Made by a program: the position numbers and the translations under genes. From NCBI RefSeq assembly GCF_000949135.2, contig NZ_JTAN02000008.1, positions 62,001 to 126,000 of the forward strand: 64,000 nt of DNA. Direction: 5' to 3'. The notes under the pieces are model-generated. The model ran no database searches. It was not told where the DNA came from and was given only the letters and a program-made list of their open reading frames with translations. Source of the stretch: Burkholderia sp. USMB20. Its GTDB lineage: Bacteria > Pseudomonadota > Gammaproteobacteria > Burkholderiales > Burkholderiaceae. This document shows positions 29,033-32,103 of this stretch, one piece after another (position 1 is the stretch's first letter; the number at the start of each line of letters is the position of its first letter).

Positions 29033-29063
29033 TTGACCTTGTAGTGGCTTCAGGGTGTTAACT
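29033..29063 (+). promoter_or_regulatory. CadR-type promoter/operator of the metal ATPase gene
   Basis: TTGACC (29033-29038), a 19-bp spacer and TTAACT (29058-29063) form a promoter with the over-long spacing characteristic of MerR-family activation. The spacer holds a dyad, ACCTTGTAG (29036-29044) and CTTCAGGGT (29048-29056), matching the known CadR/PbrR operator pattern ACCyTrTAGTGGCTACAGGGT at nearly all positions. This is strong evidence for CadR control. Confidence 0.88.
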
Positions 29064-29093
29064 GTACTCCGTCAAGCCATAGAGGAGGTTGTC

Positions 29094-31724
29094 ATGACCG
29101 ACGCGCAGCGTACCCACGACCCACGACACCGTCATGCCGGCGGCGCCGAGACCTGCTGCGCCGATGCGCGCGACCCGCAGGCGGCGACAGTTGGTCACGC
29201 GGCGTCGGCGGCCGGCGAGCACGCGCACGCGCACGGCGACGCGGCGGCGCGCGACGGGCAGTCGCGTGGATGCGGCCCCGACCATGACCACGATCAGGCA
29301 TCGGCGCACCTCGCTGGGCACGACCACGGTGGCCATGCCGGCCACGCGCACGGCGACGGGCATGGCGATGCGCACGGCCACGCGCACGACGACGGGCACG
29401 GGCACGGCGCGCATGACCATGCTGATCACGATCACGATCACGATCACGACCACGACCACGACCACGACCACGACCACGACCACGACCACGACCACGACCA
29501 CGACCATGCGGCCGGTGCCTGCTGCGCGCCGGCCGCGCTGACGCTCGCACCGCTGCCGGCCGCGCGCGCGACCGCGTCGGGTCATGTGCGCTCCGCGTTC
29601 CGGATCATGCAGATGGACTGCCCGACCGAGGAAATGCTGATCCGCAAGAAGCTCGGCGGGATGCAGCAGGTGTCGGCGCTCGAATTCAACCTGATGCAGC
29701 GGATGCTGACCGTCGACCACGTGGCCGGTGCGCAGCCTGCGATCGAAAGCGCGATCCGTACGCTCGGGATGACGCCGGAGGCCGCGTCGGCCGACGCGCC
29801 GGCAACGCCGGTCGCGCCGCCGCCCGCGAAGCCGTGGTGGCCGCTCGCGGTCGCCGGCGTCGCCGCGATCGCGTCCGAGGCCGTGAGCTGGGCCGGCCTG
29901 CCGGTGTGGCTGTCGGCGGTGCTGGCGCTCGCGGCCGTGTTCACGTGCGGGCTGACCACCTACAAGAAAGGCTGGATCGCGATTCGCAACGGCAACCTGA
30001 ACATCAACGCGTTGATGAGCATCGCGGTGACGGGCGCGATGGCGATCGGCCAGTGGCCGGAAGCCGCGATGGTGATGGTGCTGTTCACGATCGCCGAGCT
30101 GATCGAGGCGAAGTCGCTCGATCGCGCGCGCAATGCGATCCAGGGCCTGATGCAGCTCGCACCGGACACCGCGACCGTGCAGGACGTCGATGGCACGTGG
30201 CGCACGATCGAGGCCGCGCAGGTCGCGCTCGGCGCGATCGTGCGCGTGAAGCCGGGCGAGCGGATCGGGCTGGACGGCGAAGTGGTCGCGGGCCGCTCGA
30301 CGGTGAACCAGGCGCCGATCACCGGCGAGAGCCTGCCGGTCGACAAGACGGCAGGCGATGTGGTGTACGCGGGCACGATCAACGAAGCGGGTTCGTTCGA
30401 CTATCGCGTGACCGCGGTTGCCGCCAACTCGACGCTCGCGCGGATCATCCACGCGGTCGAGGAAGCGCAGGGCGCGAAGGCGCCGACGCAGCGCTTCGTC
30501 GACCGGTTCGCACGCGTCTATACGCCGATCGTGTTCGCGGTCGCGCTGCTGGTCGCGGTGGCGCCGCCGCTCGTCATGGGCGGCGCGTGGCACGACTGGA
30601 TCTACCGCGCGCTGGTGCTGCTCGTGATCGCGTGCCCGTGCGCGCTGGTGATCTCGACGCCGGTGACGATCGTGTCGGGGCTCGCGGCCGCCGCGCGGCG
30701 CGGGATTCTCGTGAAGGGCGGCGTGTATCTGGAGGAAGGCCGCAAGCTCGCGTGGCTCGCGCTCGACAAGACCGGCACGATCACGCACGGCAAGCCGGTG
30801 CAGACCGATTTCGACCTGCATGCGACGGACGTCGACGCGGCGCGCGTGCGTCATCTCGGCGCGAGCCTCGCGGCGCGCTCCGATCATCCGGTGTCGCAGG
30901 CGATCGCCGCGGCGGCGCGCGACGCGCAGACGGCAGCGTTCTCCGATGTTGAGGAATTCGAAGCAATCGTCGGGCGCGGTGTGCGCGGCACGATCGACGG
31001 CGCGCGCTACTGGCTCGGCAACCACCGGCTCGTCGAGGAGCTCGAACGCTGCTCGCCGGCGCTGGAGGCGAAGCTCGACGCACTCGAGCGGCAGGGCAAG
31101 AGCGTCGTGATGCTGGTCGACGACACGCGCGTGCTCGGCATCTTCGCGGTGGCCGACACGATCAAGGACACCAGCCGCGCGGCGATCGCCGACCTGCACG
31201 CGCTCGGCATCCGCACCGCGATGCTGACCGGCGACAACCCGCACACCGCGCAGGCAATCGCGCAGCAGGCCGGCATCGACGATGCGCGCGGCAACCAGTT
31301 GCCCGAGGACAAGCTCGCGGCGGTCGAGGAATTGTCGGCGGGCGGCGCGGGTGCGGGCGCGGTCGGGATGGTCGGCGACGGGATCAACGACGCGCCGGCG
31401 CTCGCGCGCGCCGACATCGGCTTCGCGATGGGCGCGATGGGCACCGACACGGCGATCGAGACGGCCGACGTCGCGCTGATGGACGACGACCTGCGCAAGA
31501 TTCCCGCGTTCGTGCGGCTGTCGCGCGCGACGCACCGCGTGCTGGTGCAGAACATCGGCTTCGCGCTCGGCGTGAAGATCGTGTTCCTCGGCCTGACGGT
31601 CGCCGGGCTCGGCACGATGTGGATGGCCGTGTTCGCCGATGCGGGTGCGAGCCTGATCGTCGTCGGCAACGGCTTGCGGCTGCTGTCGAAGACGGGCGTG
31701 TTCGACAGCGCGCGGACGCAGTGA
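29094..31724 (+). CDS. cadA: P1B-type Cd/Zn/Pb-exporting ATPase with long His-Asp tract
   Basis: This 876-residue inner-membrane ATPase exports divalent heavy metals. The first about 145 residues are extraordinarily rich in His, Asp and Gly, including fourteen uninterrupted Asp-His pairs at residues 111-138, flanked by CC pairs (AETCC, AGACC). A metal-binding domain follows with one reduced motif, MDCPTEEM, in place of CxxC. Then come transmembrane helices; the CPC ion-site motif with first cysteine C514 (ACPCALVISTPV); phosphorylated D558 in DKTGTITHGK; ITGESLPVDK; and the hinge GDGINDAPALA. The CPC motif and the Asp in the last helix region (FADAGASLIVV) indicate the Zn/Cd/Pb group. GAGGAGG precedes ATG 29094; a GTG at 29055 lies inside the promoter and is rejected. 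Confidence 0.95.
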   Translation: MTDAQRTHDPRHRHAGGAETCCADARDPQAATVGHAASAAGEHAHAHGDAAARDGQSRGCGPDHDHDQASAHLAGHDHGGHAGHAHGDGHGDAHGHAHDDGHGHGAHDHADHDHDHDHDHDHDHDHDHDHDHDHDHDHAAGACCAPAALTLAPLPAARATASGHVRSAFRIMQMDCPTEEMLIRKKLGGMQQVSALEFNLMQRMLTVDHVAGAQPAIESAIRTLGMTPEAASADAPATPVAPPPAKPWWPLAVAGVAAIASEAVSWAGLPVWLSAVLALAAVFTCGLTTYKKGWIAIRNGNLNINALMSIAVTGAMAIGQWPEAAMVMVLFTIAELIEAKSLDRARNAIQGLMQLAPDTATVQDVDGTWRTIEAAQVALGAIVRVKPGERIGLDGEVVAGRSTVNQAPITGESLPVDKTAGDVVYAGTINEAGSFDYRVTAVAANSTLARIIHAVEEAQGAKAPTQRFVDRFARVYTPIVFAVALLVAVAPPLVMGGAWHDWIYRALVLLVIACPCALVISTPVTIVSGLAAAARRGILVKGGVYLEEGRKLAWLALDKTGTITHGKPVQTDFDLHATDVDAARVRHLGASLAARSDHPVSQAIAAAARDAQTAAFSDVEEFEAIVGRGVRGTIDGARYWLGNHRLVEELERCSPALEAKLDALERQGKSVVMLVDDTRVLGIFAVADTIKDTSRAAIADLHALGIRTAMLTGDNPHTAQAIAQQAGIDDARGNQLPEDKLAAVEELSAGGAGAGAVGMVGDGINDAPALARADIGFAMGAMGTDTAIETADVALMDDDLRKIPAFVRLSRATHRVLVQNIGFALGVKIVFLGLTVAGLGTMWMAVFADAGASLIVVGNGLRLLSKTGVFDSARTQ
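29424..29507 (+). repeat. Hexanucleotide repeat (GAYCAY) encoding fourteen Asp-His pairs
   Basis: Fourteen consecutive 6-bp units lie inside the ATPase gene: four as GATCAC, the rest as GACCAC, with a final CAT. The unit is a multiple of three, so slippage changes tract length without breaking the frame. It is expected to vary between strains. Confidence 0.9.
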
Positions 31725-31737
31725 CGAGGAGCGGGCG

Positions 31738-32103
31738 ATGAGCTTTCTGAAACGGATCCTGGGTGGCCACGGCGGCGGTCATGGCGGTGGGCATGGAAGC
31801 GGCCACGGTAGCGGCGAGCATCATGGCGGAGCGGGCCGGGAAGGCCATGGCGGCCACGATGCGCGCGGCCGCGATCGTCACGGCTGGGGCTGGCAGCCGT
31901 CGGCCGACGCGCAGGGCGGCCCGGGCAGCAACGTGCCGCTGCGTCAGCTCGCCTGTGCGGGCTGCGGCGCCATCAACGCGGCGGATGCGCGATTCTGCGC
32001 GCAGTGTGGTGTAGCGCAGCGGGGCAAGGCATGCAGCCGCTGCCACGCGGCGCTGGCCGCTGACGCGCGCTTCTGTCCGGGCTGCGGCACGCAGGCCGGG
32101 TAA
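31738..32103 (+). CDS. Small Gly/His-rich double zinc-ribbon protein
   Basis: This 121-residue protein has two parts. Residues about 8-50 are Gly/His-rich (GGHGGGHGGGHGSGHGSG, then EHHGG), a plausible flexible metal-binding tail. Residues about 72-121 hold two zinc ribbons, each with two CxxC knuckles: CAGCGAINAADARFCAQCG and CSRCHAALAADARFCPGCG. No signal peptide or membrane segment is seen. It starts 13 bp after the metal ATPase gene, with GACGAGGAG before its ATG, so it is almost certainly co-transcribed and CadR-induced. I do not know a characterised homologue. A cytosolic metal buffer or donor for the pump is an inference. The zinc ribbons could instead mediate protein contacts. Confidence 0.82.
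   Translation: MSFLKRILGGHGGGHGGGHGSGHGSGEHHGGAGREGHGGHDARGRDRHGWGWQPSADAQGGPGSNVPLRQLACAGCGAINAADARFCAQCGVAQRGKACSRCHAALAADARFCPGCGTQAG

Follow-up and report, generated by a model that had tools for sequence, protein, structure and literature searches.

A Zrd-family zinc-ribbon protein encoded behind a CadA-like pump gene in Burkholderia sp. USMB20 and its possible role in zinc and cadmium export

We analyzed a 64,000-nt stretch of Burkholderia sp. USMB20 (contig NZ_JTAN02000008.1, positions 62,001 to 126,000; hereafter the window), in which a gene for a 121-residue zinc-ribbon protein directly follows a gene for a CadA-like heavy-metal pump. This small protein is almost certainly a member of the family of Zrd, a CadR-controlled protein of Pseudomonas aeruginosa, and is co-regulated with metal export. 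It probably binds metal in vivo, and association with the membrane is somewhat favored. Direct hand-over of the metal to the pumps, rather than plain sequestration, is a more tentative proposal that we would not call probable. For the reading as a whole, that these proteins are metal-induced, membrane-associated zinc/cadmium buffers that may pass metal to pumps, we see an even balance. The features of the locus are, in window coordinates:

28581 to 29012, minus strand: cadR, a Cd(II)/Pb(II)-responsive MerR-family regulator of 143 aa (TIGR02047, 178.5 bits against a cut-off of 151.45)
29033 to 29063, plus strand: CadR-type (MerR-type) promoter/operator TTGACC-N19-TTAACT, assigned from sequence, with TTAACT ending at 29063
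29094 to 31724, plus strand: CadA-like P1B-2 heavy-metal P-type ATPase of 876 aa with a His-rich N-terminus (TIGR01525, TIGR01512 and motifs)
31738 to 32103, plus strand: Zrd-family protein of 121 aa (PF12773 at 42.3 bits, family profile A2 and alignments A1 to A3), made up of an amphipathic N-terminus (residues 1-9), a Gly/His-rich linker (about 10-52) and a double zinc ribbon (73-118)

The small protein begins with MSFLKRILGG, continues into the Gly/His-rich stretch and ends in two Cys4 ribbons. The initial annotation had recognized both ribbons, and the PF12773 match (residues 73-117) agrees with this, as do the eight cysteines in CXXC-N10-CXXC spacing (C73/C76-N10-C87/C90 and C99/C102-N10-C113/C116). 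It had misplaced the Gly/His-rich stretch in a tail; the stretch lies N-terminally, which rules out a tail role for the histidines. Pfam matches were confined to ribbon families, DUF7577 and UPF0547, with neither a metallothionein profile nor an HMA domain among them up to an E-value of 0.01, and no NCBIfam family scored above its cut-off. Among solved structures, the ribbon has relatives in ribosomal L40e, DZANK1, a putative regulatory protein and IFT122 (nine sequences, E ≤0.01), a generic match that does not cover the N-terminus. The protein appears to be cytoplasmic, as far as its sequence tells.

All three parts of the small protein are under purifying selection: in a set of 47 sequences from the genus, omega is 0.19 in residues 2-10, 0.35 in the linker and 0.135 in the ribbons. 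Across 47 non-redundant family members, the mean hydrophobic moment of the nine residues after the initial Met was 0.557 versus 0.352 +/- 0.025 in shuffled sequences (0/500), a result that is strong for the set and not for single sequences, as it covers nine residues only. In this set the starts of L156, L157 and L159 were placed by eye, and doubtful starts in L122, L131 and L047 lower the figure. The moment lies above that of the shuffles; therefore, both the annotated start and the amphipathic segment are conserved. The Gly/His-rich N-terminus, too, is probably real in the family, given its conservation and the selection acting on it in the genus of the window.

Zrd was found by binding-site selection and chromatin immunoprecipitation as a CadR-controlled open reading frame that the PAO1 annotation lacks (Barrows et al. 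2025, PMC12301328). In this July 2025 paper, which addresses regulation only, induction of zrd by Cd and Zn is CadR-dependent, Zn/Cd binding is proposed and sequestration is suggested as the role, with translation of the N-terminus left open. The initial annotation had regarded the design of the window protein as without a characterized counterpart next to CadA. Zrd was not described next to CadA, but the design itself is no longer new, since Zrd was already named in 2025. A P. aeruginosa copy on plasmid record NZ_CP131792, preceded by an OprD-family porin gene and followed by a convergent gene, was taken as zrd because its neighbors match those described in PMC12301328. Aligned with hhalign through profile A2, with the window protein as first sequence, this copy gave a probability of 99.7 over 89 columns (residues 1-91) at 45% identity. 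It begins with MGFFERLL, is Gly/His-rich and stands behind a CadR-type promoter whose spacer is 19 bp. Zrd and the window protein are both small and carry two CXXC-N10-CXXC ribbons each; CadR control, reported for zrd, is predicted for the window gene from its promoter sequence. They differ in that zrd has no transporter gene nearby except the porin, whereas the window gene stands second behind a CadR-type promoter, after cadA, and in that the window protein has a longer linker (121 versus 91 aa in total). In the open-access literature (without supplements) we found no further description of a Zrd-type protein besides PMC12301328 and a legend in PMC7019866, and a word search of PMC7242495 returned nothing on such a protein. 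Within this scope, it is new that the protein occurs in a pump-linked form, that such linkage extends through the family, that CadR-type operators precede relatives from species other than P. aeruginosa, that the N-terminal segment is conserved and that the family can be connected with a pMOL30 transcription start site (below).

The description of the locus as a P1B ATPase gene followed after 13 bp by the small gene is confirmed, and CadR control is predicted from the sequence. The regulator passes the TIGR02047 cut-off for CadR/PbrR membership, cadR is divergent from the pump gene with the CadR-type promoter between them, and 13 bp separate the pump stop codon from the ATG at 31738. The pump scores above cut-off for TIGR01525 (580.6 bits) and TIGR01512 (480.9 bits) and carries CPCAL in transmembrane segment (TM) 6, ALGVK (Lys) in TM7 and DAGASL (DxG) in TM8, which by what we take to be the motif-to-class rule places it in P1B-2 (CadA/ZntA). 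Its ATG at 29094 is preceded by AGGAGG and was preferred over a longer frame from GTG at 29055. On the promoter evidence, cadA and the small gene are under one CadR-type promoter. A consensus scan of 31650-32450 showed no promoter-like or terminator-like site, and 28400-33400 held no Rfam match at gathering score. The His-rich pump N-terminus, also anticipated in the initial annotation, includes an Asp-His run encoded by ~13 CACGAC copies (window 29427-29506), a repeat whose length may vary between strains. Directly 3' of the small gene lies another array (window 32208-32379; ~17.6 copies of CGAGTTC, then CCGAGCC-like units), possibly a variable-number repeat, ahead of a convergent AraC/GyrI-like gene.

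Conservation of the gene pair, proposed beforehand as a check, was borne out within the genus and beyond it. In all 54 loci read, which come from 54 different genomes among the 61 of the genus, the small gene lies directly 3' of the pump gene. Its start codon is -13 to +57 nt from the pump stop codon (10 nt in 39 of the 54 loci), the +57 nt spacing at L053 looking like a frame artefact. Of two further genomes of the genus, G032 had a fragment at a contig end and G043 had no pump match at an E-value of 1e-100. The 24 loci with longer flanks (L031-L054) all have CadR and PadR genes 5' of the pump gene and a 19-bp-spacer element of CadR type between cadR and the pump gene; an AraC/GyrI-like gene follows 3' in 19/24 and an MscS-like gene (labeled by eye) in 23/24. 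In G059 and G054, open frames of unusual length had the look of a ribbon-pump fusion, but the pump stops in a different frame or ahead of the small gene; therefore the overlap is 13 nt at most and there is no fusion. Another, divergent pair of pump and small protein occurs on a B. contaminans plasmid (L055 = L152), where a cadR-like stretch was matched in three pieces. Overall, 60/101 related genomes gave matches, some of which are ribbons of large unrelated proteins, and a contig scan with the window protein as query gave 46 loci, mainly from Burkholderia, plus generic ribbons.

Profiles were run against genomes of the same family (299), order (300), class (369) and phylum (398). At most 12-15 candidates were scored in each genome, so that the counts of relative-bearing genomes are minimum values. 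These searches recovered full-length or near-full-length relatives in several families of the same order and in at least 7 of the 369 class genomes (G937, G633, G783, G930, G831, G715 and G667). We classified the surroundings of 48 copies outside the genus, hand-picked by profile coverage and not by context as short frames spanning most of the profile; four are from plasmid records, and L156 is included. The sample excludes L130, L055/L152 (same genus), L144/L148 (partial ribbons), L147 (within a frame of >1200 codons), L150, L198, and equal-score copies in G103, G166, G175, G207 and G287 plus one in G221. A P1B ATPase gene was found within 5 kb of 40/48 copies and within 300 bp of 34/48, and a P1B, CzcA-type RND, CDF or ZIP gene within 5 kb of 46/48. 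After removal of near-identical copies, the corresponding numbers among the remaining 37 were 30, 25 and 35. By comparison, a P1B gene is expected within 5 kb of a random point in only ~1.3% of cases, because there are 207 P1B ATPases in 203.6 Mb (38 genomes). The pumps within 300 bp comprised 16 of Zn/Cd type (CPC, DxG) and 14 of CzcP type (SPC, HEG); of the other four, two CPC and one SPC pump had the last motif unread (L111, L160, L161) and one was unread (L139). The nearest copper-type pump lay 3.7 kb from a family copy.

The arrangement varies (behind, before or convergent) while the partnership stays. The small gene lies behind cadA in the window, before the pump gene (L136, L158-L161), convergent with it (pMOL30 type), beside a CDF gene (L135, L125) or inside czc clusters (such as L137, L138, L141 and L155-L157). 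Linkage to different transporter families in varying arrangement suggests a general service to export near the membrane, not a fixed subunit of one pump. Several loci merit separate mention. Identical pMOL30-type proteins stand beside a CzcP-like pump in two genera (g43 and g64; L118-L121, from G240, G126, G233 and G343), which suggests recent spread on mobile DNA. L138 (G463) has two Zrd-like genes (4278-4583 and 5880-6212), with MgtC-like and ZIP-like genes (by eye) between them and a P1B-4 pump and a CzcA-type gene next to them. The Zrd-like gene of L156 (G633; 6022-6342) contains an in-frame TAG between the ribbons and adjoins a P1B-4 pump and czc genes. On Enterobacter asburiae plasmid pEnt261, a truncated zinc-ribbon open reading frame (L150, 5968-6132) lies between two recombinase genes near a CDF gene, and 42-residue matches resembling it occur on other Enterobacter, Klebsiella and Kosakonia plasmids.

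CadR-type operators also precede some relatives that do not lie behind cadA. Using a matrix trained on 17 distinct cadR-cadA promoters only, we scanned 250 bp upstream of 27 copies not behind cadA (L115, L118-L121 of L149 type, L133 and L156 were left out, and coordinates for L144 are arbitrary). Sites of 26.8 to 41.6 bits were found upstream of 9/27 copies. Among 6000 random windows the 99th percentile was only 5.4 bits, and the 12 top-scoring of these windows overlap such relatives' sites (8) or a training cadR-cadA promoter (4). The operators lie at -118 (pMOL30), -127 (the variant in L117 and L154), -107 (L123), -72 (L135) and -65 (P. aeruginosa), and at -64 to -66 with a 20-bp spacer in three gammaproteobacterial loci, in which the small gene precedes a pump gene. 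Co-induction with the pump, as first suggested for the window, is thus backed by the single promoter sequence for both genes, by the operators of these nine relatives and by the published induction of zrd.

Another relative is encoded on plasmid pMOL30 of Cupriavidus metallidurans and appears in a legend of PMC7019866. Its features are:

NC_007971.2 92152-92454, minus strand: RMET_RS33240 (WP_008650724), zinc-ribbon gene, the Zrd-family homologue
NC_007971.2 92535-92572 (L149 11712-11749), minus strand: CadR-type element at TSS_92535, found with the operator matrix

This homologue has the same architecture as the window protein, an adjoining P1B pump gene (RMET_RS30150, at the position of czcP) and a CadR-type operator; unlike the window gene, it is convergent with its pump gene, which is of P1B-4 type, and has its own promoter. 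The tag Rmet_5971, considered for this gene, belongs to flgB. According to Table 9 of PMC11647585, the score of the minus-strand start site TSS_92535 rose from 277 +/- 12 in unchallenged cells to 167,358 +/- 14,211 with a metal mix of Zn, Cu, arsenate, Hg, chromate, Cd, Ni and Co, an increase of ~600-fold by these values. The table lists this start under czcP and its environment, assigned to the RpoD model, with minus-strand starts treated as antisense and no gene named (PMC11647585). We found that TSS_92535 precedes the RMET_RS33240 start codon by 81 nt and follows the TTTACT hexamer of the CadR-type element by 7 nt. This position suggests that TSS_92535 is the promoter of the Zrd homologue, a reading of our analysis and not of PMC11647585.

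These observations can be combined into a working model. CadR would switch on the small gene together with Zn/Cd/Co export, and elsewhere in the family the switch would be a sister MerR-type regulator or, presumably, a Czc regulator. The N-terminal amphipathic segment would hold the protein at the inner membrane, where the Gly/His linker may offer many weak metal sites and the ribbons two tight ones. Surplus Zn or Cd could then be captured near the pumps and passed to them, and such buffering would spare other zinc proteins until export catches up. The bacterial metallothioneins SmtA and PmtA are similarly small, metal-induced and Cys-containing, and in PMC12301328 bacterial metallothioneins are described as often forming polynuclear metal clusters. 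Unlike them, the window protein has two separate Cys4 ribbons with a Gly/His linker and no metallothionein match. CopZ and Atx1 are copper chaperones of P1B-1 pumps. Metal hand-over to a P1B pump would be a job in common with them, though the window protein has no HMA match.

Several observations weigh against this model of a membrane-held buffer and donor. The literature consulted, in its accessible parts, contains no metal-binding, localization or deletion result for any family member, and the AlphaFold2 model is unusable except around ribbon 2 (mean predicted local distance difference test score 50.1, with 21/121 residues at 70-90). The small gene is lost, shortened or degraded in 5 of the 61 genus genomes although the pump is kept: it is absent in G045 and G056, left as a remnant behind the pump in L218 (G010), and reduced in L220 (G051) and L221 (G058) to a one-ribbon short form whose N-terminus looks amphipathic and which lacks the Gly/His linker; therefore, the linker and the gene are dispensable there. 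No metal-transport gene was seen in the stretch read at L146, at the P. aeruginosa copy (L153) or at L198 (Labrys, outside the 48), and L146 and L198 also have no CadR-type operator. Among the 40 copies with a P1B gene within 5 kb, L132 and L134 have a copper-type pump only, 3.7 kb away. Finally, 18 of the 27 upstream regions scanned have no CadR-type site, and 14 of these 18 copies have an RND gene within 5 kb, which is consistent with control by Czc regulators. An obligatory pump subunit is counted against by G343, which has one relative for nine P1B matches, by the pump-remote relatives and by the five genus genomes above.

Among the competing explanations, a plain metal sponge ranks as the main rival and a regulator of pump activity comes next. 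As a metallothionein-like sponge, the protein would lower free Zn/Cd with no dealings with the pump, as proposed in the Discussion of PMC12301328. The P. aeruginosa copy sitting apart from metal genes and the single relative for nine pumps in G343 fit such a role, but two Cys4 sites only, the repeated tight linkage to pumps as immediate neighbors in either order, and a conserved amphipathic N-terminus with no obvious role in a free sponge do not, and we consider it a serious, though rather unlikely, explanation. The ribbons could instead sense zinc status and adjust CadA, CzcP, CzcCBA or CDF activity, or act as a brake that avoids over-pumping. Co-location with four transporter families suits a sensor of the zinc state no less than a donor, and a quencher role is stated in PMC9045368 for CzcI, another Czc accessory protein. 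Such a regulatory subunit would need the same contact in several unrelated transporter families and has no direct support, and we regard it as improbable.

Less probable still is a role in the stress response, either by action on nucleic acid or ribosomes or, as the alternative of the initial annotation has it, by sensing zinc sites that have gone wrong under cadmium stress, such as mis-metalled ones. This idea draws on L40e among the solved-structure relatives and on the frequency of zinc ribbons in nucleic-acid-binding proteins (noted in PMC12301328), but the ribbon match is generic and leaves out the N-terminus, and metal-transport genes lie near 46 of the 48 copies. That the gene is a neutral hitch-hiker of metal-resistance loci would accord with its absence, shortening or decay in five genomes that still carry the pump gene; purifying selection on the small gene, the relatives' own CadR-type operators (9/27) and linkage retained through different arrangements make this very improbable.

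The buffer-and-donor model has a more far-reaching form, in which the Zrd proteins of Pseudomonadota are a dedicated membrane-held donor that supplies Zn, Cd and Co to pumps of the P1B-2 and P1B-4 types and perhaps also to CDF and Czc systems; this we put forward as a speculation that is unlikely as it stands. If it were true, several pumps would draw on a single strongly induced protein; this would explain why its gene may lie on either side of them, opposite them or at a distance and often keeps CadR-type control. To our knowledge, there is no established chaperone feeding Zn or Cd to bacterial P1B pumps, and Zrd would then be the divalent-metal counterpart of the copper chaperones. A family tied to pumps by gene position in many lineages, in places with its own CadR-type operator, makes the question of a Zn/Cd chaperone directly testable in C. 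metallidurans CH34. There, our analysis suggests that a very strongly metal-induced pMOL30 start listed with czcP antisense transcripts is the promoter of the gene for the Zrd homologue.

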